A stretch of 64,000 nucleotides of DNA from Erythrobasidium yunnanense (taxonomy: Eukaryota; Basidiomycota; Cystobasidiomycetes; Erythrobasidiales; Erythrobasidiaceae), in assembly GCA_001600175.1 (NCBI GenBank), contig BCJC01000003.1:2046001-2110000 (forward strand). Direction: 5' to 3'. Shown here piece after piece: positions 8,611-26,826 of this stretch. Within the stretch, counting starts at the first letter, position 1. Every line of letters starts with the position of its first letter. Both the position numbers and the translations under genes were made by a program. Below the pieces are notes generated by a model. The model was not told the origin of the DNA and searched no databases. It saw only the letters and a list, made by a program, of their open reading frames with translations.

Positions 8611-10732
8611 ATGAGCTCAGACCTCTCTGCGAGCCAAACAATGGAGGACGACGACGACGTTTACTCCCAGTTCGATTTTGCTCCTGATATCGTTGCTGCT
8701 GTCAGGTTCGCGTGATTGTCGTGGTTGTGATCTGCTTACAGGTATACTGATGCGACGTTGCTGCAGCGAGGACACGCGGCCCGTGCTTGAGCAGCGCATG
8801 GCCGTCAAAGCCCAGCTCAAAGCGATGATCGAGTTTCAGATGAACGATAAAAACTACACCTCAATCCAGCAGGCCCAGAAGGCCGGCGAAGCTCCTCCTG
8901 CTGAGAGTCCTACTCGCCTTGCGCACGGAGCGAGCAAATATAGGGCCGAGGACTTTCTCAAAGAGTTTGGCGCCGATTTCGCCAAACATCTGGGCCGGCA
9001 GTTTGTCCCTACGTATCTGTATTCGTCAGACTGGCGAGCGGCCTATCGGGACGCAGATCTTGATCCAGTGCATTACGACTTCTTCAGGGACAATCGATTC
9101 AAGTTTGACGATGATTTCCTCATCTTCTATTGCCATGAATGGTCCGAGGGCTCCCCGAAGTGGATCGCGTCGAAGTGGTCGAAGACGCCAGCTTTCGAGG
9201 ACGACCCGAGGGAGCGTCTGTCGCTCATGCACTATGTGAGACGAGAGTGGGGATATGAGAATAAGCTCTTTTCCGTTCTCAAGCGCGACTTGAAGAAGGC
9301 GCTGTACGAGCTGTGGAAAGGTCCGCGACCTCTTCCTGGTCTGCCAGATCATATTCAGACAATTTGGAATGTGTCGGATCTCAGCGAGAACCCAGCCTTG
9401 TCGCCTATCGATTGCAAAGCCATTCGTATCTTGACCCAGGCAATGGAGATTGGTGCCCCTAATCAGTATACGAATCCTCTTCGCCAGTATCGATACGAAG
9501 GTGTCCCTATAAAGGAGTCCAAGGTCATCGAAGAGCTTTGCGAACGCATCGCTGAATCTGCTCGAGCTTTGATCGCGTTGGCAGAGGTTCACTGCTACAA
9601 AGTCATGCGCGGCTTGCAGGATACCGAGCGCATCCTACCTATCGTCGGTACTCCAGAGACGAATCGCTTGGAGCCTGATGAGTACACGGCCAAGCTGCCA
9701 GCTTGGACCGAGCCAGACAGGAAGGACGGCAACCTTGAGGCCTGGGCAGCAGAGGCTAGAAAGGAGATCGAGTCCTGGAAGGCCGGTCGTGATCTCGAGA
9801 TGGACAGGATCGTATCGGAGCTTGCGAGAGTACCGGAGATGATTCGGCAGCTATCAGACGAGCCAGCACCCGAGAGCAGCGATGGCTCGACGTCCAAGCT
9901 CGTCTCAGGTATCGAGGCTATTACTCACATGACGCGCAGCTACGTCAATCCTACAGGAGAGGGCAGCTTTTCCATTCCTCTCCTGCGGGCCAGCGTCGAT
10001 GCGCTGCGCGAGATCTCCAAGATGGTACCAGAGAAGGACAGCCATACTACTGAGCTCGTCTTGACGATGGTAGTGCTGTGCTTGGTCGGTTGCAGCCAGA
10101 CCGAGGACTTCACAGTCTGGTTGGCTCTGACAGACTTTGCAATCAGACTCCTTGTCAAAGACAGTGCGGAGGATGGAGCGCCCGAAGACGCGATGACCTA
10201 CGATGAGCTCGTCGTCCTGACTAGACATGTCGTGCCTACCTTATACGGCGCAGTCGACAGTCTGGCTGTTCAGCGCCATAACGTAAAGCGCGCACAGGAT
10301 ACGAAGACGTCGGACGATCTTCTTCGCTCCAAGCTCGCGTTCTTCACAGCTACATACATCGGCCAGATCTGCCCGATGTGCGGAATCGATACCTGTCAGA
10401 ATGAGCTGCCGAAGAATGAAGGAGGAGTGATGGGAGACGTCTTCCTCAAGTGCTCGTGCTACAACTACGAGTCGATGATTGGAGCTGCGCGATACCGCGG
10501 TACAGGCTATTCGCCAAATTCAAGCTTCAAGTGCTTAGCCCTCTTCTTCGAATACTATCCACACAAGCAGCTCACCTCGCTCTACTCGCTCACGTCCATT
10601 ACGGGATCCAAAGGATGCAAGAATCTGCGAAAGGTCTGCGGAGGAAATCAAGGATGGCAAGGTAGGCTGGCTAGAGATCCAGAGAAGTATGCAGCGGAGA
10701 GCGAGATTCCGAAGTTCTACGTAGAAGGCTGA
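8611..10732 (+). CDS. Unrecognised 686-residue protein with C-terminal Cys cluster
   Basis: Two exons: 8611-8705 and 8767-10732, joined over a 61-nt intron (GTTCGC..GCTGCAG, branch TACTGATG). A second in-frame ATG lies at 8641. The N-terminus is acidic (MEDDDD). The middle is mostly helical and charged. A possible zinc site sits near residues 570-610 with CPMCGIDTC followed by KCSC. The C-terminus is basic and rich in Lys/Gly. No membrane segments or signal peptide. I do not recognise a family. The 3' part (from about 10255) is the left edge of the tandem duplication: a decayed copy of the Cys-rich end lies at 17098-17463. It sits directly upstream of another orphan gene. Coding status is supported by the long open frame with strong codon regularity. 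Confidence 0.72.
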
Positions 10733-10918
10733 ACGTGGGATAGGTGATGAGCTGCTTCTTACTGCGAGATTGCAATGCCAATAATGGTTGCGAGATGAGA
10801 GAGCTTTGCGCTTGACAGTTTTGACATTTTCGTGGTGCTTCGGAAATTGCGGAAAGAGAGTCTGACATCAGCCCACCTAAAGTCCGCAGTCTATCACCGG
10901 GAGACATCAGCAGTCATA

Positions 10919-13900
10919 ATGGCATTCATAAATCAAGTCAACGATGGTGCTCACCGTGCCTATCACATTGGCGCTCTACAGCTGGCTGGTCCAGTGGACT
11001 TTGCGACCATCGGGCAAGTCGACACCTGCAACGACAGACTGCGAAACCAGCTTCGAAGGGAATTCGCTACCGACATTGCTGCTTCTGAACGCCGCCAAAC
11101 AGCTGCTATCGCTGCTGCTCTTCCTGCTGCTGTTGCTCCTCCGGCTCCAGTCGTCGCTCCAGCTGAGCCCCATCCGGACTTTCGAGCTCTCCATGATGGA
11201 ACTGTCGGTTTCGCACGTCGTATATGCGTCGAAAGGCTAGCTGAATCGTGTACGCTACAGCGCCGAGAAGTGCGCAAGCTTGCTGAGAATGTAGAGGGTG
11301 TCGATAGATGCACGAGAGTACGACTTGAAATGCCAAACTTGATTTTTAACAAGGAAAGCAGATAGCTAATCATGTCTTGTATGTACACAGGAACTGATTG
11401 GTATCAACCAGGTGCGCCCACACTTTGAAACGACTTGGCCGGGTTCCCCAGCTGGGACCAGGTTGCTGTTGAAAAGTACAAAACGCTGACGAGATTCGCT
11501 TCTATGCTTACAGAACGTCATTCCACAGCTGAATGAAAACGGTACTCAGCTGCACAAGGCACTCAATGCGATTCTGGCCATCCAGAAGAGACTCGACGTA
11601 ACGGAGGAGCGCAATCGTCAGCAGCACGAAAGCCAGCTATACACCCTTCGTATGGCACGCGAGCTCGAGGCTAGGCTAGACGTTGAAGCGGTAAGGCAGT
11701 CTCTTGCTGTTTCAAGACTTTGGCTGACTGCTTTGATGCTTTGTTGCAGGCCAAAGTCTCAGCTCTCGAAAGCGACAAGCAGGAGGTATGCTGGGTCTTG
11801 TCATTGATGTGGTGACTTGATTGAGAGCTGCTTTTGATATATCCGACAGCTCCTCACCCGTGTCGAAGTCCTGGAGAAGCAGGCTAGCGAGCAGCAGCAG
11901 AAGTCCAAGGAGATGGCGGAGACTTGTCGGCTTCTGGAGAAGATGCTGGCTGCATGCCATGGCACATTTGCGACATGGGAAGATCTGCGCGATATGGCCT
12001 TCGCAGTCATGGAGCAGATCGACCTGGCGGGCTACAGGACCGACGAGCGCTTCGCCGAGGTCTCGAACAAGGCGATGAGTCTGGCGCGTGTGCGTCAAGT
12101 GCATTTTCTGGATCGATATGCTGCGATTCCACTGATGAGGATGTTTGTTTTGTTCTTGCAGGCCGTGACAGTCAGGCTGGACGCCATGTCTGACAAGTTC
12201 GACAACCTGGCCATATCGTCCTGCGACATGGGCTACGTTGAGAGCAGGTTGATCGAGGTCCAGCAGTCGCTGCGGGCAGAAGTCCTTGCTCTTGACGTAG
12301 TTCGTGGAGCGGAGACGCATAGTGTTGTCGGTACTGTCATCGCTGCACAATCTGGCCATCTGGAGAAGGCTATCGTCAATACGGCTGATCTGGTACAGCT
12401 GTACAAGAACCAATCAGGTCAGCAAGAGTTACTCGACACGATCAGAGAAGATCTCGCCGACAGCATATCGAGCTCCGTCGACAATGCTCTGCAGATCATC
12501 TCCATCAGCACCAAAGTCGAGGACCTCGACATCCGCGGCGTATGGACTGATCAGCATGCAGCGGTCCAGTCCCTTGCGATCGAAGGGCTCGTCGAAACCC
12601 AAGCGCAGGCGGCGAAATTGACCGGTGACTTGCTGTCTGCAATCGGCAAGAGCGACCGAGAGATCCGACGTACTCGTACCAGAGTTGGCGATGGCGAATC
12701 AAGGCTCGACAACTTGGCGACGATATGTCCGGATCCCTCGGTCATCGCAGACCTGCATAGCGAGATCAAGAGTCTGACTCACGTCAGCGACATCGTCGTC
12801 GACCGAGTCGCTGCTCACCACGACGCCCTCGCAGAGCGAGCTACCGACGTCGACTTCCTTTCCAACCAATTGGAGGTGCTGGCTATCGATGCTGCATCTG
12901 AAGTCAGCTTGGGCGAGGTACGAGGCAATGTAAACTTGCTCACCAAGCATGCGAAAGACATCTCGCGAAGACTAGGTGTCGGCCTCGGGAAGATCAAGCA
13001 GATTTCCCATCTGGCCAAGACCTCCCAGATCACCTTCTCTGCTGGTATCACTAGCCTGTGGGACTACTGCAGAGCATTGAGGACCGTCAACATGGAGCAG
13101 TGGAGGCAGATTGACGAGACGGTGAACAGCATGTGCCATACGCAGAGGAGAGTGCTGACATTGGAGAACACTGTCGCTGCTGGCGGACAAGGTGAGTCGC
13201 TGTCTTGCCCAATCCCAGTGTTGGTCCGTATTGAGCCGGGATGATTTAGCTGGCAATGATGCGGATGCTCCTAATCAGGTTGCAGACGAGGAGCCGGTCC
13301 CTAATCTGGATGAAGGAGAAGGTGACGAGGAGCAGCCTCAGCAGCAGCAACAGCAACACCAGAATGTCGAAGATGTCGGCCAAGAGGAAGCGCATCAGAA
13401 CGATGGACACCAGCCTGCAGACGGAGCAGAAGGACAAGGTCAGATGGTCGACTATCAGCCAGCCGAGTTCGACTTTGAAGCTGACCAAGGCGGATTGGGC
13501 GGAAACGACGTCGACATGGCTCAAGCTGGTGGTTCGCCAAAAGCAAGTCGGGCACCCAGTCAGGGAGAGGAAGAAGCCAGAACCCTTCTTCAGCTCGGTC
13601 AAGAAGGCCGCAAGCGAGCTCTCTCGAGTACCGGTCCGGTCGAGCCAGAGGGAGACCAGCCAAAGAGAACAAAGGTAGAGGAGGATGACGATGATGACGA
13701 AGAAGAAGAAGAAGATCAAGAAGACCAGACTATTCCCCTTCCTGCTCAACGTGAGTCCTCTCCACTCTCCAGTCCTCCTTCTTCTCCCAGACCAGCAGCA
13801 TCAGCAGCCCAACCTCTACGCAACTCTTCTCCTACTCATTCCGACGATAGCGAAGCAGATGAGCAACCAGCTCCAACTATGCAAGATGTAGCGAATGGTT

Positions 13901-14301
13901 TCGAGGCTTGGACTACTGCGATGGGTGGAGATGCAAGCGACTTCTGGAATATCAGAGCGGTCTGGCCCGGCCCAGATAATACCGAGTCTCCAATTCAGAA
14001 GCTCACGGGATGGCTTGTCATCCTGAGAGAACTGATGGGCGCCAATAAAAAGCTCTTCATGGATGCCGCAGGTAAAGGCTTTATTATCCAGCATGGTGAC
14101 CTGATCAAGGCTCTTGCGGTCGCTGCGCACGAGGAGCAGAACATGAAGAGCCTGTCGCAGGTCGAGGAAACCGCCTTTCCTATGCTGGCGTCTTTCATCG
14201 ATGCCTTGTGCCAGCTCAATCAAGGGATCACGAGGCAGTGGAGATTCAATACGGATGCGATGCGAGGTACGGCCAGAGTATTGAGATATAAGAAGCGATG
14301 A
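10919..14301 (+). CDS. Orphan coiled-coil protein with acidic C-terminal region, 984 residues
   Basis: Seven exons: 10919-11317, 11391-11411, 11514-11690, 11750-11785, 11850-12089, 12162-13191, 13250-14301; total 984 residues. Exon 2 is only 21 nt (ELIGINQ). Intron 12090-12161 is 72 nt and stop-free. Residues ~60-90 are Ala/Pro-rich. About 140-640 is heptad-like helix with Leu/Ile/Val spacing and repeated D/E-S/A-R patterns, so probably a long coiled coil. From ~650 there is a Gln/Glu/Asp-rich disordered stretch with a putative nuclear signal (PKRTKVEEDDDD, ~790). The last ~140 residues look globular (MQDVANGFEAWTTAM, then a basic end). No known family recognised. The gene is the main passenger of a ~6.7 kb tandem duplication; the second copy (18090-20984) is decayed, while this one is intact. 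Confidence 0.75.
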
Positions 14302-14423
14302 GTGGAAGTCGGTGCGTTATGGAGAATCGATCGCTTCTTGATGCGGAAGAGGGTGCAGCTAATGGGAGAAGGAGAATGGCTATGATGGAAGTCTGCTGTA
14401 TTTGTACGAGATCTTGATGCTTG

Positions 14424-14909
14424 ATGTCGTTATGCGAAGTTCGCGACAATATAAAGCCTGCACACTCGTGCCCCCTTCCGGAAATTCGGTACCAAGTTGA
14501 AAGTGTTGACCCAGAGGAGACCAAGAAATATTGCCAACAGCTTCACCGCAGCGCTGCAGCATGGAAGTTGATACACTCTTTCTTAACCCAGCTGAAAGGC
14601 TGCAGCAGCTGCGACTCTTTGCCCATCCTTCTAGTCCTGCCACACCTAGAGCGCTTCTCCGTTCCGCGGGCAGACTTCGCTGTTGACAGCGACTATGTCA
14701 CCCAGCCTTTTTCACTGTTCCTAGCCGTAGAAGGCAAAACTCAGAGGCCAGTCCATCGAAGATCACAGATACCTAGATGTCGAGCAGCCGAGATCCTGCC
14801 ATGTGCCTCACGAAGCCAGTACTTGGCGGCGCTAGCCTGCCTAGACATTGTATTTCCAGCATTTCCGAGGTTGAGAAGTCGCAGCGATCCATTCAGAGTT
14901 GAAGTGTAG
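14424..14909 (+). CDS. Possible small gene in the duplicated unit, 161 residues
   Basis: Open frame of 161 codons starting at an ATG 122 bp after the stop of the coiled-coil gene. Product unrecognised, with hydrophobic stretches in its middle (HSFLTQL, ILLVLP, PFSLFLAVEG). The matching region of the second unit (about 21130-21410) is roughly 95% identical over the first ~165 bp. Several differences there are silent in this frame (gca/gcg, ttg/ctg, tta/ctg, caa/cag). The second copy carries stops. That pattern hints at past coding constraint, but the sample is small and the same DNA could instead be a conserved 3' region. Low confidence. Confidence 0.3.
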   Translation: MSLCEVRDNIKPAHSCPLPEIRYQVESVDPEETKKYCQQLHRSAAAWKLIHSFLTQLKGCSSCDSLPILLVLPHLERFSVPRADFAVDSDYVTQPFSLFLAVEGKTQRPVHRRSQIPRCRAAEILPCASRSQYLAALACLDIVFPAFPRLRSRSDPFRVEV

Positions 14910-17090
14910 GTGTAGATGGGCGGAGGACGCGGCTAAGCCAGAGGTAGCCTGGGCGGACAGTAGGAAACGGCAGAAGATGACCCAGTCTTGGAGAAGCGTA
15001 ATATGAGACGGAAGAAGTAGGGAGCGATGTCGTACGGGGCGTTGCGATGAAGAAATGCCAATTTAGCCGTTTGAGTGACAATATAGTCAGAGAAGCTTTC
15101 CGGGGTGAAGAAGGTATCCAGACCTTGGAGTAACGTGTATGCTGCATGGTGGAATGTAGAAGAAGGCCGTGCCTGCTCAAATGGTCGAACGAAGCCATTT
15201 CTTGCACCAGAAACCGCTGGTATGGAGAGAAGAGGCGACCGGGCGCGCTGCGTCGGGCATTTCCAGGTTGGTAAGGGTCTTCTCCAATGCTGAGAGCCGT
15301 CTCTTCGGCTGTTTGGTGTTGACGAGCCGCTGATAATGGAGGGCTGGGGAAAGCTGGGCTGACTTCCTGTTCCAGCGCCTTCGATGGCACGCCGAAGTAG
15401 CCAGACCTTGGAGGACCTGTACGTGAAGTGATTCAGCGATATTCCAAGCCGCGGTATAACTCCCCCTTCGAAATATGCGAAAACTGACAAAAACCGACAA
15501 ACACGCTAGGTTGAGTCCCAAGCGTACGTTCAAGCTGCCTGAGCCTTGGAGAGACGATCTATTAGAGAGATAAGAAGGTTGATTAGCCAAGAATGTAGCT
15601 ACTGAAGCCATGGCGAGGTACCTTAGCTCAGATCGTAGGCGTGTGAAGCAGGATCAGGACTGAAAGTATCGCGTCTTGCTTGCGTGGTGGTCTTCCAAGA
15701 CCTGGTTCGTCCTGCAGGCGCCGTTACACGTTGCCAGGGAGCTTGGCAAGAACCAGCCCGAATTTACTGCCTGGCGGAAAGATCATGTCGAGGCGGCCAG
15801 GATGGGTATCCAGACCTTGAAGAGCGTGGTTAGAACACTGAAAACAGTCGTCTTGGCCGAGCCAGCTCGAGTCGCCTCACTAAAATATGCCAGATTTCGG
15901 CCAGAAGTAAAGCCAGCAGGCGGAGGAAGCCGAATGGACGTCCGGCGAATTGACCATAGAGAATAAAGACTGTGTCTCCAAGGTTGGGATTCGAAAGCGG
16001 AAAGACTTTCCCAACATCTTGGTGGATATGACAAAATAGGCTGAAAAGGCAAATCTCGTAAGCAGTGGCTCAGACAACGGTGAGATGGTTGTCATACCCC
16101 ATTTCTGTATCGTCTCCAAGGCTGGGAGTCGATAACGAATCCGTGATGACTTTGCGAGGGGCGCGAGCTCTGCAAGTGGAGGAGGACGACGACATCAGCG
16201 GAAGCGACCCCGAAGATCATAGAAGGGGGAGATCCAGACCTTGGAGCTACTTCGTACGAGTCCAAAATTAGCAGCCTATGCGAGCTTCAGAGCGAGCGCG
16301 CTGAAGTATATCGATTCTTGGGAGCGAGGTCGAACCAGTAGCTAGCGAAATGTATCTCGAGGTCCAAGGATGGCTTGCATCGCTTCATGATGCTGTGTTC
16401 CAAGGCTCAGATGCGTCGTATCGGCCGAATTGTCGCAGAGGCAGCTATTCGGCTTGCGGTGACGAGAAGAGACCAGGTAGTCGGTCGAGTGCAGCGAAAG
16501 TGCCAGTTGGAGGATACCGAGCCTTGGAGGAGGGACTTGACTGTTCATAAATAAAGAAGAAGTCAGCTTTGATGCCCATTGCGCGAAATGTCAGACATTC
16601 TGGGTCGGCGAACACTTACCGACAAGCCAAGAAGGAGAGATACCCGGCTGAGAGCAAGCGTTCTAACATCAGTGTATGCTCCTCCAAGGCTGAGAATCCA
16701 CTAGAGGGTAGCTCACCTCGTTCTACAGTCCATCTTCATGCTTGGGCTGCCAAACATGGGAGCTTTGCCTTTCCTTTAAGCTGCGGCTGCACCGATGATC
16801 TGTATACACACGTCAGCCTGTCAAGCATCAGTGCGAACCATCAGCTGCCAGAGAAGCTGCCGTCTTCCTTGCTTTATGGCTGCTCGAGTTGGGCGAGCTT
16901 CTATGGACTTGGTCAAGCTGGGCTCTGCTGGGCGAGAGAAGTGGAAGAAGTGGTGCAGTACACTGCTGGGTTAGCGCTGAAGCTGCCGGGTCGATACTGC
17001 AGGCAGTCTGTAGGGATCTCGGTAGAAGCTTCGTTCTTCTGTCGACTAGGCGGCCAGTTCGCAGGAGGATGAGCAGGCATTATTTACAGC
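14910..17090 (-). other. Octamer-array zone, unit 1; possible minus-strand transcript
   Basis: No convincing protein gene. Two facing octamers, CCTTGGAG and CTCCAAGG (or one-base variants), recur at 14986, 15123, 15282, 15406, 15544, 15692, 15815, 15976, 16114, 16239, 16398, 16522 and 16682, spaced about 115-175 bp. Minus-strand intron candidates have canonical ends in this unit or its partner: 16619-16541 (GTAAGT..GAACAG), 16097-16039 (GTATGA..TTTTCAG) and 15488-15417 (GTCAGT here, GTGAGT in unit 2). Hydrophobic translated pieces occur on the minus strand (for example LLALLLAEIW), but no long frame survives. It may be a decayed multi-exon membrane-protein gene, a spliced non-coding RNA, or a structured repeat. 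Confidence 0.5.
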
Positions 17091-17097
17091 CTACTGG

Positions 17098-17463
17098 ATG
17101 GTGCTGAACATCGAAGCACAGCTCCAAAACGTCAAGCGCGCCAAAAAGCTTGAGATCTTTCTTCGTTGTTCCAAGGTCGCCTTCTTCACAGCGACATACA
17201 TTGAGCCAGGTCTGCCCGATGTGCGATTGATGGCTGTCAAGACGAGCTGCTTGTATGTGATTCGGAGTGATGAGTGTCGTCGGAGCATGTGTCGTGCAGG
17301 CAAGCCTTTCGAGTCGATCTTTCTGTGCGAGCTTCAGGCGGTCCAGGCTTTCTACGCCAAGCTTGACGCTTCAATTGCTTATCTTGTCGATGCTAGCTTG
17401 CTGTACAGCTTTCGAGGTCTCGCGAACGAGTTGTATGCAAGCAGAGCTGTAAACATCACGTGA
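17098..17463 (+). pseudogene. Truncated copy of the Cys-rich 3' end of the 8.6-10.7 kb gene
   Basis: The translation from 17098 keeps the parent's order (NVKRA, then SKVAFFTATYI) and then diverges: the parent's CPMCGIDTC region reads differently here after small indels, and KCSC is lost. It lacks the first ~540 codons of the parent. It marks the left end of duplication unit 2, so the breakpoint lay inside the parent coding region. Unlikely to be functional. Confidence 0.75.
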
Positions 17464-17606
17464 AAAAGGTCAGAGTCGTCGGGTGCTGGTCATCTCTGAG
17501 AAACCCCTGAGCTGACGAGCTCCTTGTATATGCATGGTCATTAGTCGTTGTTGTATGTCTGCTTGATACCACCTGCAATCCCTTTGCGCAAAAAGCTGGC
17601 TCCAAG

Positions 17607-18069
17607 ATGTCAAGCAATACGGCCAGCAGTGGTAACTCATCAGTCACAAGCGGCAGTAGCGACAGCACCCAGAGCGTGCAAGCAGCGCCATCCAAAGCCG
17701 ATGCAGAGCGTATTGCAGCATACGAGGCGAAGCTGGTCAATGCTTGTGCAGCCGCAAGAGCTGCCAGTAAGCCAGACTTCAAGGCTCTACTGGCAGCTCG
17801 AAAGCCAGTCCGTCGCTTCTCTTCTCTCGCGCAATCGATTGCATTGTACAACAAAGGCTGACTGATCGCTGTCTTCTCCTCCTGCTTCATCTGTGCGCTT
17901 GCGCTTGCCGCTGTCCTTCCAGCTTCCGAGGCCTGCAGATCAGACCCTCGAGTCCGAGCCTTTCCTGCTCCCCAACGATGAAGGCTGGGCAGAGAGCGTG
18001 CTCGCTGAAGCAAGGCGAGGTGGAAAAGACGCTTCTCCCACAAGCAGCGCCGGAAGTGCCGCCAGCTAG
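17607..18069 (+). CDS. Possible small Ser/Ala-rich gene in the unit-2-specific segment
   Basis: An 84-codon frame from ATG 17607 (Ser/Thr/Asn-rich start, then Ala/Lys-rich helix with KPDFKALLAARK) is followed, beyond a pyrimidine-rich CTTCCAG acceptor near 17920, by an open stretch ending near 18069. The exact join is uncertain: TT|GTACAAC at 17846 is one donor, but it puts the downstream frame past 18069. This segment has no counterpart in unit 1, where exon 1 of the coiled-coil gene lies. The shared intron just after it (from ~18090) is well conserved between units. It could be a replacement first exon of the decayed copy or a separate gene. Confidence 0.25.
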
Positions 18070-18089
18070 GTATCAATGTAAGCCGGAAG

Positions 18090-20984
18090 AGAGGTCTCTT
18101 GTCAATGCCAAACCTGATTTTTAAGAAGGAAAGCAAGCAGCTAATCATGTCTTGTATGCTATACAGGATCTCATGGTATCAATCAGGTGCGCCTACACTT
18201 TGAAACGTCTTGGCCGGGTTCCCCAGCTGGGACCAGGTTATTGCAGGAAAAGTAAATCAACTCGAGCTGATTCGCTCTTTGCTTTTATCTACTTCAGAAG
18301 GCAAGCCTCCCAATAAGAGCACCTCATCAGCTGCTGGACTGGCCTCTTGTGTTCTGCAATTTAGATTAGACTCCTCTGTAGAGGCACCTGTTTTGGACCA
18401 ACAACAGTGTAGCAATAAAATACCATACATTCATCGCAAGAGCTCGCGAGAAAAGCGAAATATTGCCGCTGTCGAGTCGTCTCTTGCTTCAGACGGGGAT
18501 GGTCGGTTGCGCAGATGGGCGAAAGTTTGCATCTCGAGAGCCGGCAATGGCTGATGCCGACGACGAGCATGATGATGGAGTGATTTGAGGGCTTGATACC
18601 GACAAAACTCTGCACGTATCGATGCTTGGAGAAGCTTGGCGTATGGATGTAGCTGCAGAGTCTTTTTCGCAAACCAGAGATGCGAACCGCTGCTGACTGA
18701 AATGCAAGTGACTGCATTTGCGATGCTGAGGACGACTTGAGCGAGTGTCTGAGCGTATTTTTTTCAGCTGACGGTATGCGGGTCATGAGCCAAGCGGCGA
18801 CAAGGGCAGTTCGAGCAGGGCGACTGGCAGTGAGCGTCGATATATCTTGATCTATGATCGATTCCAATGATGGTCGAATCGTGCATAGGCCTTGAACATC
18901 TCGACTGCATGTCTTGCCAAATTCGACATCTTGGCTGTATCGTCCTGCGACATGGGCTACGTTGAGAGCAGGTTGATCGAGGTCCAGCAGTCGTTGCGGA
19001 CAGAGATCATTGCTCTTGACGCAGTCCGTGACGAGGAAGCGCATAGTATTGTTGAGACCGTCATAGCTGCCCATGTTGACCAAATGAAGGAGTTGTCGTC
19101 AAGTCGGCTGATCTTGTAGGTGGAACTGTACAAGGATCAAGCAAGTCAGCGATAGTCACTCGTCATCGTCAGAGAAAAGTGTCGCGGAGAGCATATAGAG
19201 CTCGGTCGACAATGCTCTGCAAACGAGTTCATTCAGCATCAGAGTCGAGGATCTTGACAACCGAGGCCGATGGACTGACCAGTATGCAGCTTTCCAGTCC
19301 TTTGAGAAAGAGGGTCCCGTAGAAGGACAAGCGGAGGCCTCGAATCTTGGCAGCCAAATGCTGTCTGCAATTGACGAGAAGCACCGGGTTATCAAGAGGC
19401 TGCGTCCAGAGATCCATGATTACTGATAAGGCTCGATAGTCTAGCGCCCACTTCTCCAGATCTGTCGGTCGCTGCAGAGCCATTGGCGAGATAAGGGGTC
19501 TGACCAAAGTCGGCGATATCGTTGTTGACTAAGTCGCAGGCCATACCGATGCCCTCGCAGAGCGAGCTACCGATGTCGACTTCCTTTCCTCGCCATTGGA
19601 GGTGTTGGCTGTCGATGCTGCATCTGAAGTCAGCTTGGGCGAGGTGCGAGGCAATGTAAACTTCCTCACCGAGCATCTTCAAGACGTCTCGCGCAGACTG
19701 GGTGTCGATCTTGGGGAGATCCGGCAGGTTTCCCACCCGGCCAAGACCTCCCAAACTTCTCTCTCCACCGGTATCGCTAGCCTTTGAGAATGTTGCAGAG
19801 TCTTGATGACCGTGCATCAGCACCAGTGGAAAGATAGCCATGGTGTCGTTCGAGGACGTATGCAGAGGAGCTGCCTTTGACCGAGTCCATTGGCGCTGCA
19901 ACGATCGGAGCCGAGTATCGGCTTGATGACCCAGATGGATCCAGTATGCATTGATAAGGGCTAATTCAGATGACGATGTTGACGATATCTCTATAAGATG
20001 CTGCTGCTGACGAATTGGTTCAGGTGGTGGGTGCCAGAGGTGACGTGAGAGCCCAAAGTGGATGCAAAAGTGAAAGGTACGGTGAGGGAATGCGAAGACG
20101 ATAGAACCAGCTTGAAGAAGGTACAGAGGGACAAGGACTTACAGCCAGCCGAGTTCGACTTTGAAGCTGCCCACGGCGCATGGGATGGAAACGATGTTGA
20201 CATGGCTCAAGCTGGTGGCTCGCCAAGAGCAAGTCGAGCACCCAGCCAGGGAGAGGAAGAAGCCAGAACCCTTCTTCAGCTCGCTCAAGAAGGCTGGAAG
20301 CGAGCTCTCTCGAATGCCGGTCCAGTCGAGCCAGGAGGGAGATCAGCCAAAGAGAAAAGGTGGAGGAGACGACCAAGTTCATGATGAAGAAGGTGAATAG
20401 GACAAGACCGTTCCTGCTTCACAGCCTTGGTCTCCGCTGCCAGTTCCTCTTTCCAACCCCGGTACTCCAGAAAGTCAACAGCAGCCCATCCTTCTCTTAA
20501 CTCTGCACCTTCTCCGACTCCTTCCCATCATAGCGATGCATCCGAGTAACCAGCCCATACTATTCAAGAGGTAGCGGATGATCTCGATGCCTGGAATGCC
20601 GTGATGGGTGAAGATGAAAGCGACTTCTGAAATGTCAGAGCGGTCTGACACGGCCCAAGTAATACCGAGTCTCCAATCTAGAAGCTCACAGGATGTCTTG
20701 TCACCCTCAGAGAGTTGATGGGCGGCAATAAAAAGCTCTTCAAGGTTGCCGCAGGTGGATGCCTTTTGAGCCAGCATGATGACCTGATCAAAGCTCTTGC
20801 GGTCGCTGCGCATGAGGAGCACAGCATGAAGAGCTTGTCCCAGATCCAAGTAACCGCATATCATATGCTGGCTGTTCTCATCTCTGCCTTGCGCGGTCTC
20901 TATCCAGGGAAAACGAAGGCGTGGATATTCGATACGGACAGGATGGGAGGGACTGCCAGAGTGCTGAGGTACCAGAAGCGATGA
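18090..20984 (+). pseudogene. Decayed copy of the coiled-coil orphan gene
   Basis: Scattered open stretches match the parent: 18910-19119 (ISSCDMGYVESRLIEVQQSL-like), 19550-19787 (ATDVDFLSNQLEV-like), 20140-20400 (PAEFDFEA to the SRAPSQGEEEART region) and 20715-20984 (the C-terminal globular part ending ARVLRYQKR). Between them the frame is broken by stops and indels, and the acidic run is shortened. Splice-site sequences of the first parental introns are still recognisable (CTATACAG near 18165, ATCAG|GTGCGCC near 18187). I see no way to read it as one protein, so it is probably non-functional. Confidence 0.82.
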
Positions 20985-21049
20985 ATGAAGGTGACACGGG
21001 AGATACCGACTTCTTGCTTTGGGAGACATCGAAGCTGCCGCAAAGGTAC

Positions 21050-23745
21050 TGGGTCTCATCGAAGCTTGCTGTATTTGTACGACATTTTCATGCCTGGTGT
21101 CCTTACGCGAACTTCCCGACAACATACAGTGCACAGTCCCGTTCTCTTCCGGAAATTGGGTACCAAGTTGAAAGTGCTGACCCAGAGGAGACCAAGAAAT
21201 ATTGCCAGTAGCTTCACCGCAGCGCTGCGGCATGGAAGCTGATACACTCTTTCCTGACCCAGCTGAAAGGCTGCTGCAGCTGCGACTCTTTGCCCATCCT
21301 TCTAGTCCTGCCATAACAAGGGCTCTTCTCCATTCCCCATGCAGACCTCGCTGTTGACAATGACTATATCGAACAGTCTGTTTCACTACTTCTAGCCGTA
21401 GAGAATGAATGCGAAGGTCGGGCCAGCAAAGAAGACGGAATCGCGAATGTCGAGCAGCTGAGATCTTGTCCTGCATCCCTCGAAGCGAAGAATTGACGGC
21501 GCCAGGTTGCTCAGATGTTGTAATTCCAGTATATCCAAGGCTGAGAAGTCCCAGCAATCCGTTCAGAGTCGAAGTATAAGCGAGGATGGATAGGGGATGC
21601 GACCCAGCCATAGATGACATAGACGGAGACCAGGGATGCGTCGGAGATGTCCCAGCCTTGGAGATACATATAAAAAGATGGAAGAAGTAGTCGGTGATGT
21701 CGAAAGAAGCGCCGTAGAGGAGAAAGGCCAATTTGGCTGTTTCAGTGACGAAATAGTCAGAGAAGCTTTGCGGGTTGATAAAGGTATCCAGACCTTGGAG
21801 TAGCGTATACGCTACATTGTGGAATGTAGGAGAAGGCCGTGCCTGCTCAGACGGTCGAATGAAGCCGGTTCTTGCACCAGAAACCGCTCGTATGGAGAGA
21901 AGAGGCGGCCGGGCGTGCTGTATCTGGCATTTCCAGGTTGATGAGAATCGTCTCCAATGCTGAGATGCGTTGCTTCAGCTATCGGGTGCCGGCCGGCTGC
22001 TGGGCCTGGAGGGCTGGAAAGGGCTATGGCGACTCGGCGTTCCAGTGCTAAATCTGTCCAGACGAAATATTCAGACCTTGGAGGACCTGTAAGAGAAGTG
22101 ATTCAGCAACATGCCGAGCCGTCTGTGAAGCTTCTTTATAAAATATAGAAAAACTCACGGAAACCAGCGAATACGCTAGGGAGGTGCAAAAGTACCGGTT
22201 CGAGAGATTTCAGCCTTGGAGATAGAGTCGGGGATGCAGAAATTGATACGTTTCAGCCTAGAAAAGAACTACAGAAGCTGGAACAGCGGTACCTAGGCCA
22301 GATTCAGATCTTGTGACTGCTTTTTCGGGCTTGAAAGTATCGCATAGTCCTCCTGTGATGGTCCTCCAAAAACTGGTTCGTCCTGAGGGCGCTGTTGCAC
22401 GTTACGAGGGAGCTTGGCAGGAACCAGCCCGAATTGGCTGCCTGGCGGAAAGGGCGTGTCGAGGCGGCCAGCAGAGGTATCCAGACCTTGGAGAGCGTGG
22501 CTGGAACACTGAAAACAGTCGTCTTGGCCGAGCCAGCTCGAGTCGCCTCACTAAAATGTGCCAGATTTCGGCCAGAAGTAAAGCCAGTAGGCAGAGGAAG
22601 CTGGATGGAGGTCGGGCGAGTTGGCCATAGCGATAAGAGACCGTTTCTCCAAGGCTGAGATTCGAGAGCGGAACGACTTCCGCAACGCTCTGGTGGATAT
22701 GAGAGAATGGGCTGAAAATGGCTATCTCGTAAGCAATGGCTCAGACAACGGTGAAAGCATTACCATACCTCTTTTCTGTACCTTCTCCAAGGCTGAGATC
22801 TGAGTACCGGTCCAGAATAAGCTTGCGTTGGGTGCGAGCACTGGCAGCGGGAGCGCGCGACGGCATCAGCTGGAGCAGACCCAATAATTGAGGAAGAGGC
22901 AGATCCGAACCTTGGACCTGCTTCCTAGGAGTCCAAAATTGGCAGTCCTGGCACGTTGCGAATCGGAATGCGAGAGCTATGTCGATTCTTGGGCGGCTCG
23001 TCGTTGCAGCAGGCGGCGAAACCCTATCTTTGACAGGAAAGCTTCTTGAACAGCTTTAGAAGACGATGATCCAAGGCTGAGTAGCGACGGAAGTGCCCCG
23101 AGTCTCGTGTGCAAGCTGTTCTGTCGTTGCGGTTCGAAGAGGAGGAGAGCGGGTCGACTAATGATTCGAAAATGCCGTTTGAGCGATACTGAGCCTTGGA
23201 GGAGGTAAGAAACTATTCAGAAGCGAACAAGAGGTGAGCTGTGGTGCCGGATTCCAGGAATGTCACGCATTCTTGAGAGACGAGCACTCACAGACAAGCC
23301 AAGAAGGAGAGATACCCGGCTGAGAGCAAGCATTATAACATCAGTGTATGATCCTCCAAGGCTGAGAATCCACTAGAGGGTAGCTCACCTTGTTCTACAG
23401 TCCATCTGCATGCTTGGGCTGCCAAACATGGGAGCTTTGCCTTTCCTTTAAGCTGCGGCTGCACCGATGATCTGTATACACACGTCAGCTCGTCAAGCAT
23501 CAGTGCGAACCATCAGCTGCTCGAGAAGCTGCCGTCTTCCTTGCTTTACTTGCTGCTCGAGTTGGGCGAGCTTCTATGGACTTGGTCAAGCTGGGCGCTG
23601 CTGGGCGGGAGAAGTGGAAGAAGCGGTGCAGTACACTGCTGAGTTAGCGCTGAAGCTGGCGGATCGGTGTTGCAGGCAGTCTGTAGGGATATTGGCAGAA
23701 GCTTCTTTCTTTGGTTGACCAAGGCGGCCCGGTTCGCATGATGGA
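21050..23745 (-). other. Octamer-array zone, unit 2
   Basis: Counterpart of 14.4-17.1 kb. Octamers or one-to-three-base variants lie at 21533, 21656, 21793, 21952, 22076, 22214, 22364 (weak), 22486, 22647, 22785, 22910, 23069, 23194 and 23354, in the same order, orientation and spacing as in unit 1. Minus-strand intron candidates 22158-22087 (GTGAGT..TTACAG) and 22768-22712 (GTATGG..TTTTCAG) match those of unit 1 in position and size (72 and 57-59 nt). No intact protein frame is seen. The long minus frame 21731-20475 runs through antisense of the decayed gene and is not taken as real. Confidence 0.5.
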
Positions 23746-23801
23746 GAGCGGTCGAGGTTTTGCAGTTCTCCATAACTTTACACCACTATGTGACAGTCGC
23801 G

Positions 23802-24501
23802 TCACTCTTCATTCTGATACTCCTCCCACTGTGTCACTCCCTCCTTCTCCCGCTCGCTGATGACTTCCTTCAGCTTCTTGTCTGTCCATACGGTCGGAAT
23901 GATACAGCGAGGCTCGTGCTTGCATTCGACTTCTGCATGGATTACGCATTCCCATGCCTGGTCTGGCTCCCACATGTCCTTGCTGCCTTCGTATCCTCTA
24001 AGAATGTACTGCTTGGAGCAGGTCTTTCTGCCAGCCTGGTAATCGTGATCTTCGACTTTGATGTGCTCAATGTTGATGCACCTGGGCTTGTTGCAGATGT
24101 GACTGGCGTCCAGACCTGCTGTGTGGCCCATCCTTCTGGCACCTGCATAGTCACTGGAAGCAGCAAAATACCATCATGTGACAGTCAGCAACCACGCTGC
24201 TTCTCAGCAAGCTTCAACACGTACCCTGCTGCTAGAATGGCTAGTCGATGCAAGCCGAAGGTTCCTTTCTTTGAGATGGTCACTGTCTTGTACTCGCCCG
24301 AATTCTTGAAGAAACAATCAGCAAACTTAGTACCACTATGTGACAGTCCATCCTTACTGCTTTTCCTTGGAAGTACAGGCAATCTGTAAACTCATCGCGC
24401 TTGGCTGGTTGGATGTTCTTGCTGGGCGAGCCGTTCACGTAGAGCTCGATGGCCTGGACTGCTGCTGTTCTGGGGACTGAAGCCAGCGCTACGTTAACCA
24501 T
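23802..24501 (-). CDS. His-Cys-box (I-PpoI-like) zinc-loop protein A, 191 residues
   Basis: Three exons on the minus strand: 24501-24358, 24304-24225, 24153-23802. The second half carries the zinc-binding loop of His-Me homing endonucleases: SHICNKPRCINIEHI, the same spacing as I-PpoI SHLCHNTRCHNPLHL, followed by further Cys (RKTC, WECVIHAEVECKHEPRC) and a basic/acidic tail. In I-PpoI the His of the SHxC motif is the catalytic base; that His is present. The metal-binding Asn further on is not obvious (VEDHDYQAGRKTC), so nuclease activity is doubtful. Both introns (53 and 71 nt) contain a copy of the 19-bp motif, and a third copy follows the stop. Divergent partner of protein B at 24760. Fungal proteins with this loop are common and mostly uncharacterised. 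Confidence 0.8.
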
Positions 24502-24759
24502 GATGGAGATTGTGTTGGTAAGAAGCAGAGAAGCAAAACAATGAACCTCTGCTACTCTTGTCTCTGATCACCTTGATCGAGCCGTTGCAACTGACGGAGC
24601 TCGAAGCAGGGTTATCCAGACGAGCTTCGTCATTCGTCTCTTTCCTTCTTACCAACTCACACAGATGACAGCGCTCTACAAACTGGTCACCCACTCATTC
24701 TCCTACTAAACTGTCACATAATTGTACTATCAACTCTGTACAGTATCAAGGATTCATCA
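24502..24759. promoter_or_regulatory. Bidirectional promoter between zinc-loop proteins A and B
   Basis: Only 258 bp separate the two divergent ATGs, so the genes probably share control elements. One copy of the 19-bp motif (reverse orientation, 24710-24728) sits 32 bp before the ATG of protein B, probably in its leader. Confidence 0.5.
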
Positions 24760-25934
24760 ATGGCTGGCCAGAAAACAAGCAAAACGAAGAAGAGAGCAGG
24801 CTCTCCTGTCATCGAAGCCCCAAAGCTATACGATATCAAGAACGATGCTCAATTGAAATCATACAAACGACAAAAGCGGATCTCAGAGGTGGCATACGCA
24901 AAGAAGGGCCAAGTTGAGACGGATGCTCACAGAATTGCCAAGGAGAAGGGGGAATCATTTTGGTAAGCTCAACTGTATACCACTATGTGACAGTCATTGA
25001 CGCGTCGCTTTCCCTCCAGGTTCGACATGGACCGCCAAAACACCCGCGAGTAGGGCTGCATTCTTCTGGCAAAACTTTATACGCCTATGTGACAGTCGAC
25101 TCTTCCAGCACCTATCTCGACGAAGCTATCGCAATCGTCGACAAAGAAGCTGAGGCTCAAGACAAGAAGAAGCGCCAACGAAACAAGGATCTCATTCCCT
25201 GGTTCACTGCAAGCGAAGACATGGTGGAGGAGGCTTTCCAGAAGCGTCTCATGGGATACAAGCCCAACAACAGCGCTATCACTATCCCCGCTGCAAAGAT
25301 CATGGCCTTCACTGGCTGTCGACTAGCTGGCGATGGACAGAAGGTGAGCTGCAGATCGTGGAAATGACGTGCCGCATATGCTGACAGTGGTTGTAGCACG
25401 CCTACACTCTAATTAGAATCGGCAGCCCAGAGTGGTCAAGGTGTTACTTGCACCAGGTCGTTATCCTGCGAAATTACATCAACAATAGACAGTGAGTTGA
25501 TGACTGTCACATAATGGTATCTATTTCTGAATTTCTTTCTTTCCAGGGATGAGCTGCTGCTCGAGTACATCAAGCATCTCGAGAAAGACCAGGCTCCCAT
25601 CCACTGTTCGCACCTCTGCCATCAAAAGAAGTGCATAGCGCCTGGTCACATCGAACTAGAGAGTGCCAGCATGAACTCGGACAGAGAGGACTGCGCTAAT
25701 GCTGTAAGTTTCGATGCCATCTGTCACATAGTGGTATTAAGGTCTCCTCCATCCCAGCCCACCATTGTCTACGCTAGAAGATCTGATGGAAGACTCTTCA
25801 AGATGACGCCAAACGATATCTGCGAGCATACGCCGTTTCGATGCGCGCCGCGCGTCCACATCGCAAGCCGTATTGAGTTTGGTGTCAAGGACAAGAGCAT
25901 GGAGCAGAGGTACAGAGCATTCCTTAAGCTCTAG
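24760..25934 (+). CDS. His-Cys-box (I-PpoI-like) zinc-loop protein B, 298 residues
   Basis: Six exons: 24760-24962, 25020-25049, 25109-25343, 25397-25491, 25547-25703, 25758-25934. The first ~130 residues are Lys-rich and probably nuclear (KTSKTKKRAG, DKKKRQRNK). The C-terminal third holds the zinc loop: HCSHLCHQKKCIAPGHIELES, then NSDREDC, which lines up with I-PpoI LESLDDNKGRNWC. The His of SHLC is kept, but the I-PpoI metal Asn appears to be Glu here by eye. Four of five introns carry the 19-bp motif; the remaining one (25344-25396) has a possible worn version (ATATGCTGACAGTGG). Protein A is the divergent neighbour and a relative. Role unknown: domesticated nuclease, DNA-binding regulator or active endonuclease are all open. 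Confidence 0.82.
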
Positions 25935-26088
25935 TTGATGTTGTAAAAGGAACAGCAAATGCAAGATACTTCCCGCTTTCTCAATACCGTTATGTGACAG
26001 TCTGCTGCTGACCCTGCTCCCAGCTGACACCATCAGCTGATTGCGCCAACCCGTCCAATCAAAGCCCTTTAACACAACCACCAGCACC

Positions 26089-26826
26089 ATGTCCACCTCC
26101 AGTATGCTAACAGAGCTTTATAACGCGTCTCGCGCGGTCGCTAACGCGTTGCGAACGCAGCTACATCCGAGTTGATGTACGAGCGACTCACTCGCAACTC
26201 GAAGGCGTACAAGGAGGGAACAGACGACTACAGAGCTCGAGCAGAAGCTCATCTTGTCAAGATTGCTGCTGGAAGGAACGAGGTCGTAGCAGAGCTCAAG
26301 AAAGACGGCAAAGAATATCCCACTCTCGTCAAGCTAGCCGAGACCCGACAGCAAATCAAGACCCTCCAGGTGTGTATACTAGACTGTCACATAGTCGTAT
26401 TTACATACTGAAAACAACAAAATTTGTCATCTGAATCAGGGCAAAGCCGATGACCTGTACAAAAAGCAGCGAGGAATCAAGACCGCCGGCGAGCTGGCCA
26501 GAGAGCAGGAGCTTGCCCAGGAGCAGGAGCAGGCCAAGATGCAAGCTCAGCAGCAGCAGCAGCAGGCCGTCGCAGCAGCTGCAGGCGCCAACGTCCGACC
26601 TGGCAAGATTGCAAGCGAGGGCAAGGCTGCAGACAGCTCTAGAGCTCAGACAGCTGCTGGTACCAGCGGCAGCAGCAGCAGCAGCAACAACAGATCCTTT
26701 GGCGCTCCAAGCCGAGTTGTCTACGCCGACGCTGCCAATGCTCGAGGTCGAGAGCAGGGCACCGGTACCAGCAACTCCAGAGGCCGACAGACTGTCGCAC
26801 AGCAGATCCAGACTCAGCAGCCATGA
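26089..26826 (+). CDS. Charged, Gln/Ala-rich protein of 202 residues, unrecognised
   Basis: Three exons: 26089-26101 (13 nt), 26161-26369, 26440-26826. The tiny first exon gives MSTS, then TSELMYERLTRNSKAYKEG. Residues ~10-75 are helical and highly charged; ~75-120 continue as a Glu/Gln-rich helix; the rest is low complexity (Ala, Ser, Asn, Gln) ending QTQQP. No known domain. Intron 2 (26370-26439) carries one copy of the cluster's 19-bp motif, tying this gene to the two zinc-loop genes. Intron 1 contains two ACGCGT (MCB-like) boxes at 26123 and 26144. Function unknown. Confidence 0.7.

Follow-up and report, generated by a model that had tools for sequence, protein, structure and literature searches.

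A recurrent 19-bp motif in the introns and flanks of a zinc-loop gene cluster of Erythrobasidium yunnanense, tentatively read as an array of DNA recognition sites

Results

An intron-rich cluster of three genes, two of them encoding zinc-loop proteins

We analysed a 64,000-nucleotide stretch of the basidiomycete Erythrobasidium yunnanense (assembly GCA_001600175.1, contig BCJC01000003.1, positions 2,046,001 to 2,110,000 of the forward strand; hereafter the window) and focus on a cluster of three genes (G1, G2 and G3) and on a 19-bp motif that is repeated in and around them. Gene models were predicted from reading frame and splice signals. All nine modelled introns, which interrupt a total of 2082 coding bases, are of the GT..AG type, in frame and 53-71 nt long. 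The models are as follows:

23802 to 24501, minus strand: G1, 191 amino acids, zinc-loop protein of His-Cys box type, introns at 24305-24357 and 24154-24224 (model, PF05551)
24760 to 25934, plus strand: G2, 298 amino acids, zinc-loop protein with equivalents of His98, His110 and Asn119 (model, PF05551, I-PpoI alignment)
24963-25019, 25050-25108, 25344-25396, 25492-25546 and 25704-25757, plus strand: introns 1 to 5 of G2 (model)
26089 to 26826, plus strand: G3, 202 amino acids, glutamine-rich, introns at 26102-26160 and 26370-26439 (model)

Both G1 (E 2.2e-10, 41.3 bits) and G2 (E 2.6e-13, 50.8 bits, with a query one residue off the exact model) match the Pfam family PF05551 (zf-His_Me_endon), the zinc-binding loop of homing endonuclease. 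The two scores lie above the gathering cut-off of 27 bits and place both proteins in the family, in agreement with a sequence-only reading of the same DNA, which had assigned an I-PpoI-type zinc loop to two of the genes. The Pfam profile is the main evidence for the zinc loop, since a PDB search returned only a weak match of G2 to the zinc-loop segment of I-PpoI (E 0.42) and no match for G1. By the zinc-ligand numbering of I-PpoI, both zinc sites of G1 and G2 appear to have their full Cys/His pattern, with the last Cys one residue later in G2. The excerpted text of PMC9587614 lists S97, H98, H110, E114 and N119 for I-PpoI-type enzymes; in alignments read by eye, G2 keeps equivalents of all of these and G1 keeps those of S97, H98, H110 and E114, with Gln replacing Asn119. 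Of the catalytic His and the metal-binding Asn, G2 has both and G1 the former. G3 has no Pfam family above the cut-off. G1 and G2 are predicted to be free-standing spliced genes, and a search of the window with Rfam at the gathering score gave no match and thus no self-splicing intron in which they might reside. A structure prediction of G1 exon 3 alone reached a mean predicted local distance difference test score (pLDDT) of 45 and was not used.

The third-position guanine-cytosine content (GC) of the three genes is 0.62-0.64, which resembles that of the open reading frames (ORFs) at 8678-10732 (0.64) and 11913-13244 (0.67); the other nine ORFs checked range from 0.44 to 0.56.

Ten motif copies, one per noncoding segment

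In the whole window, nine matches to ATACCACTATGTGACAGTC with at most 3 mismatches were found, all within 23780-26400, and at this setting 100 dinucleotide shuffles gave 0 matches. A shorter pattern yielded ten copies, the gain being the copy at 24709-24727 (shuffle controls: mean 0.60, maximum 3). Copies 1 to 3, 5 to 8 and 10 below are based on pattern search and gene models, copy 4 on the shorter pattern and a weight matrix, and copy 9 on pattern search and splice-signal search:

23780 to 23798, plus strand: copy 1, directly past the G1 stop codon
24168 to 24186, plus strand: copy 2, G1 intron 2
24330 to 24348, plus strand: copy 3, G1 intron 1
24709 to 24727, minus strand: copy 4, between the divergent genes G1 and G2, on the 5' side of G2
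24977 to 24995, plus strand: copy 5, G2 intron 1
25079 to 25097, plus strand: copy 6, G2 intron 2
25502 to 25520, minus strand: copy 7, G2 intron 4
25719 to 25737, minus strand: copy 8, G2 intron 5
25984 to 26002, plus strand: copy 9, between G2 and G3, possibly in an intron of an untranslated region (UTR)
26382 to 26400, minus strand: copy 10, G3 intron 2
25377 to 25388, plus strand: possibly a decayed copy, its core bearing one inserted base, in G2 intron 3; weak and not counted

No further copy was found in the rest of the window, and none near any other of its genes. In a weight matrix built from the ten copies (about 25 bits), the copies themselves score 26.9-33.8, which is high by construction, and the next best site of the window, at position 26825 after the G3 stop, scores 10.0. 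Such a score is expected by chance about 0.9 times per 64 kb, and this degenerate site was rejected as an extra copy. When words of 9, 10 and 12 letters were screened for local enrichment, excluding those of low complexity, the motif family, one adjoining family and one unrelated 12-mer with three copies came up.

Seven of the nine introns carry one copy each (both introns of G1, four of five in G2, one of two in G3), leaving G2 intron 3 and G3 intron 1 without a counted copy. Three further copies lie in the flanks (i.e., past the G1 stop, ahead of the G2 start and in the gap separating G2 from G3), and none falls in an exon of the three modelled genes. The tenfold repeat at 23780-26400 and its distribution over introns and flanks, both described in the sequence-only reading, are accordingly borne out by the pattern searches with their shuffles and by the spliced models. 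Copy 4 is located 33-51 bp ahead of the G2 start, in the divergent promoter region. Copy 9 might lie in a UTR intron, for which 25943-26023 (81 nt) and 25943-26036 (94 nt) are candidates; under the consensus applied, there were no such candidates around the other two flank copies.

The ten copies occupy ten different noncoding segments out of twelve. A spread of one per segment was obtained in 282 of 100,000 random non-overlapping placements and in 157 of 400,000 with overlaps allowed, for a region (23760-26826) whose limits we chose and whose first segment we trimmed so as to contain copy 1. Exon avoidance alone has P ~1e-6 under uniform placement and is expected of any functional noncoding motif. 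Within introns, the distance of the motif varies from 9 to 38 nt to the 5' splice site and from 11 to 39 nt to the 3' splice site. For the possible decayed copy of G2 intron 3, chance occurrence was estimated at 1.4e-4 per 53 nt; because this copy coincides with the CTGAC branch-like site of that intron, the estimate is too kind and the copy stays uncounted.

Two inverted matches were observed in the cluster. The outermost motif copies point towards each other and are part of a 41-nt inverted match (23758-23798 and 26382-26422, 73%), the longest among the best 25 of 48 inverted pairs; this match may be due to chance or be what remains of an ancestral unit of greater length. The intergenic region between the divergent G1 and G2 also contains a 21-nt inverted repeat (24511-24531 and 24639-24659, 86%) with arms 107 nt apart.

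An invariant core and a variable spacer

The ten copies differ by 16 substitutions, which hit positions 1, 2, 5-8, 18 and 19, while AC at positions 3-4 and ATGTGACAG at positions 9-17 never vary. Variation is thus limited to the motif edges and a 4-bp spacer (positions 5-8), giving a bipartite layout, TAC-4 bp-ATGTGACAGTC. An invariant run as long as the 9-bp one arose in 40 of 200,000 shuffles of the substitutions. Plain copying followed by decay would hardly spare such a core, which is therefore probably under selection.

Conservation continues for about 6 bp ahead of the motif (A at position -6 and T at position -3, each in eight of ten copies); at the other end it stops at motif position 19. 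Identity is at the shuffled level in the blocks 11-30 bp before and 1-20 bp after the motif, and slightly above it in the block 21-30 bp after (131 of 3000 shuffles). The view that only the motif is shared, and that ordinary whole-intron copying does not account for it, holds as far as whole introns are concerned; the shared sequence nevertheless also includes approximately AxCT directly before the motif. No dyad symmetry was detected in the motif, with 4539 of 5000 shuffled column sets being as symmetric. Relative to the direction of transcription, five of the seven intronic copies point one way and two the opposite way.

The invariant core, the single copy per noncoding segment and the mixed orientation favour a DNA site. 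In sum, a DNA site that is under constraint and independent of orientation matches these features better than an RNA element or a whole-intron introner does, and a short motif of this kind, with an invariant core and repeated near genes, has the form of a transcription-factor site array. We also weighed whether the ATG-TGA start-stop within the motif might serve as a minimal upstream ORF, but rejected this since the majority of the copies point in the opposite direction.

A neighbouring tandem duplication with a second motif

A Pfam scan of 12 of the 20 ORFs of at least 250 amino acids identified MFS_1, BET and bZIP genes and a weak match to fungal TRI12, which together with the short GT-AG introns make a fungal source probable. 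The zinc-loop cluster starts at the edge of the second copy of a tandem duplication (10318-23749), whose copies at 10.3-17.07 kb and 17.16-23.75 kb are about 6.6-6.8 kb each and share 76-77% identity over two long matches and 82-85% over two short ones. The second duplicate looks degenerate: the 443- and 369-amino-acid plus-strand ORFs at 11913-14301 are without a plus-strand counterpart of at least 250 amino acids, and a 418-amino-acid minus-strand ORF (20475-21731) overlaps the matching stretch. Each duplicate carries an array of another motif, CTCCAAGG followed by roughly YYTGRG (about 5 bp more), in both orientations and at spacings of 120-163 bp:

14981 to 16694, both strands: CTCCAAGG motif array of the first duplicate
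21533 to 23366, both strands: CTCCAAGG motif array of the second duplicate

At 12 of the 13 places of this motif, 17 of 156 sites differ between the duplicates, against a background of 28.8%, and none of 94 rigid shifts of the places gives a difference as low. The comparison of 14970-16640 with the other duplicate counts 481 differences and 4 gap columns in 1.67 kb, with up to half of the sites differing locally. Given that no codon periodicity is visible in this comparison and that the units have little in common beyond the motif, the idea of a coding repeat was withdrawn. That two arrays of unlike motifs adjoin here may be coincidental or may reflect a property of the locus.

Discussion

A possible recognition site read by its own cluster

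Our preferred reading, which we hold tentatively and at somewhat less than an even chance, is that the motif forms an array of protein-binding DNA sites controlling the cluster in cis, its likeliest reader being the cluster's own zinc-loop pair. More specifically, a DNA-binding protein with sequence specificity would recognize the motif as a double-stranded site of about 19-25 bp. This site would have been copied into most of the noncoding segments of the three-gene cluster, where selection on the core would keep it in place. The sites would act in cis, as a control-site array in promoter, introns and 3' flanks. G1 and G2 would read them in an autoregulatory fashion, perhaps as a G1-G2 heterodimer, which suits the motif better than a homodimer because the site is asymmetric. 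The pair would bind without cutting, a role that we favour since cleavage by an active nuclease would hit the very genes that encode it. Selection, protein binding, the identity of the binder and control of expression as the outcome are steps that we infer from sequence. Binding of the motif by a zinc-loop protein is plausible given that G1 and G2 belong to a family of DNA-binding nucleases (PF05551). The three copies outside modelled introns also support this reading, and the two-way orientation of the intronic copies appears to fit a DNA site better than an RNA site.

Several points weigh against it. The counts cover 64 kb, and beyond the window the motif may occur widely in other genes. An array spread over introns, rather than focused on a promoter, is unusual for transcription control. 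The catalytic residues kept by G2 speak for a nuclease, which, if active, would cut its own cluster. The motif is without dyad symmetry, unlike the semi-palindromic site that I-PpoI-type enzymes recognize as homodimers (PMC9587614, excerpted text). Finally, no confirmed relative was found in protein scans of viral contigs with G2, G1 and the G1-G2 alignment, nor in a protein scan of GTDB prokaryote contigs, although this says little because such absence is expected for a fungal locus in viral and prokaryote collections. A motif scan of the viral contigs returned two contigs (L001 and L002) with a single copy each; being chosen for the motif from a very large collection, they were taken as chance rather than as relatives.

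We consider it unlikely that the cluster goes as far as a self-reading locus, i.e., a domesticated His-Cys box nuclease pair with its own recognition site placed once in most introns and gaps. On this doubtful account, the outcome could be autoregulation, self-targeted recombination or motif-driven intron gain, and the placement in introns would hide the site so that the proteins are never altered. If the proteins do read the motif, the locus would hold a relative of I-PpoI that is free-standing, rich in introns and uses sites in spliceosomal introns to control or rearrange the locus itself, thereby connecting intron gain with homing endonucleases and domesticated DNA binding. If the motif is instead a common host site, the cluster would carry an unusual but ordinary regulatory array.

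Alternative explanations

The latter case, operator sites bound by an ordinary host transcription factor whose site is long and bipartite (e.g., a homeodomain heterodimer), scattered over whatever noncoding DNA a compact locus offers and with no involvement of the zinc-loop proteins, is conceivable but in our view rather unlikely. It would explain the TAC-4 bp-ATGTGACAGTC layout with its variable spacer and the presence of copy 4 in the divergent promoter region, at 33-51 bp from the G2 start, and TGACAG appears to resemble the sites of TALE homeodomain proteins. However, about 25 bits is long when compared with the length and information of usual transcription-factor sites, no copy lies near the other genes of the window, and an intron-by-intron placement would be unusual. 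Introner-like remnants, in which a short motif-bearing element inserted in both directions, gave rise to introns and then decayed except for the motif, would account for the one copy per intron in seven of nine introns, for both orientations and for the weak extra likeness over about 6 bp beside the motif. The cluster is also rich in introns (nine), whereas ORFs elsewhere in the window run uninterrupted for up to 912 amino acids, a comparison of ORFs and not of intron models. The missing terminal repeats and target duplications are no argument against an introner, because fungal introners without them are described in the excerpted text of PMC9860276. We nonetheless judge this origin quite improbable: the offsets to the splice sites vary (9-38 nt and 11-39 nt), flank blocks more than 10 bp away are at shuffled identity except for the one 21-30 bp after (131 of 3000), three of ten copies lie in flanks, and the concentration of variation in the spacer is not predicted by plain decay.

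An RNA-level control element, which the sequence-only reading had also raised, is not favoured since two of the seven intronic copies run against the direction of the transcript, and we rate it as very unlikely. Here, opposite copies would pair the introns of G2 into nested pre-mRNA stems that control splicing or give circular or double-stranded RNA. The copies of introns 1 and 5 are complementary over 17 of 17 bases, and the predicted minimum-energy fold of 24700-26010 pairs them, as well as the 5' copy with the 3' copy; yet any inverted repeat would fold so, the fold being one without shuffle control, and it leaves the copies of introns 2 and 4 unpaired with each other. For the two remaining pairs of partners, the spacer letters differ and no compensation is seen by eye. 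On this fold an RNA role would be conceivable for G2, although G1 and G3 cannot pair internally, as the three copies of G1 face the same direction and G3 has a single intronic copy. The view that we credit least is that of a mobile element, for instance a DNA transposon, which the cluster would represent or descend from and which would have binding sites for a transposase or nuclease scattered inside. The facing outermost copies with their 41-nt, 73% inverted match would agree with it, as would the I-PpoI-like nuclease carried by KolobokP transposons (PMC9587614, excerpted text). Against this, Pfam found no transposase family in the three cluster proteins and 12 of the 20 ORFs of at least 250 amino acids, a scan that leaves shorter and spliced genes outside, and there is no clear terminal inverted repeat, target duplications not having been searched systematically.

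Comparison with known systems

Among the open-access literature matches listed, the excerpts describe no locus-specific motif in introns of zinc-loop genes, and none of those matched by the motif letters concerns such genes; the one paper matched by the Pfam family name deals with Naegleria ribosomal DNA (rDNA) plasmids. With the I-PpoI-type His-Cys box endonucleases, G1 and G2 have the zinc-loop domain in common, and G2 keeps equivalents of S97, H98, H110, E114 and N119, whereas G1 has Gln at the place of N119. The known cases reside within group I introns of the nuclear rDNA, unlike G1 and G2, which are modelled as free-standing spliced genes in a window without Rfam match.

The MH1 domain of Smad proteins works as a transcription-factor domain and was reportedly recognized by Grishin in 2001 as a degraded homing endonuclease. 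It is also so called in the excerpted text of PMC4999995, where it is among the members with lost zinc ligands. Smad MH1 thus provides a precedent for the reuse of a homing endonuclease-type fold, but its zinc ligands are lost, whereas G2 appears to keep both zinc and catalytic residues. KolobokP (PMC9587614, excerpted text) resembles the cluster in having an I-PpoI-like nuclease within a multi-gene unit, and differs in that no transposase was found in the scanned proteins here and no clear terminal repeats at the cluster.

His-Cys homing endonuclease genes interrupted by spliceosomal introns, one of them 47 nt long, are described in PMC9548176. They belong to the same family and likewise have small introns (47 nt there, 53-71 nt here); a shared intronic motif goes unmentioned in the excerpted text, whereas here seven motif-bearing introns are spread over three genes. 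Introner-like elements in fungi have similar intron ends and multiply over many genes (PMC4457414 and PMC9860276, excerpted text). In both systems, a sequence is common to introns at different positions. The introns of the cluster, however, are not alike at their ends or over their full length; what they have in common is limited to 19-25 bp inside the intron, is confined to one cluster within the window and is found outside introns as well.
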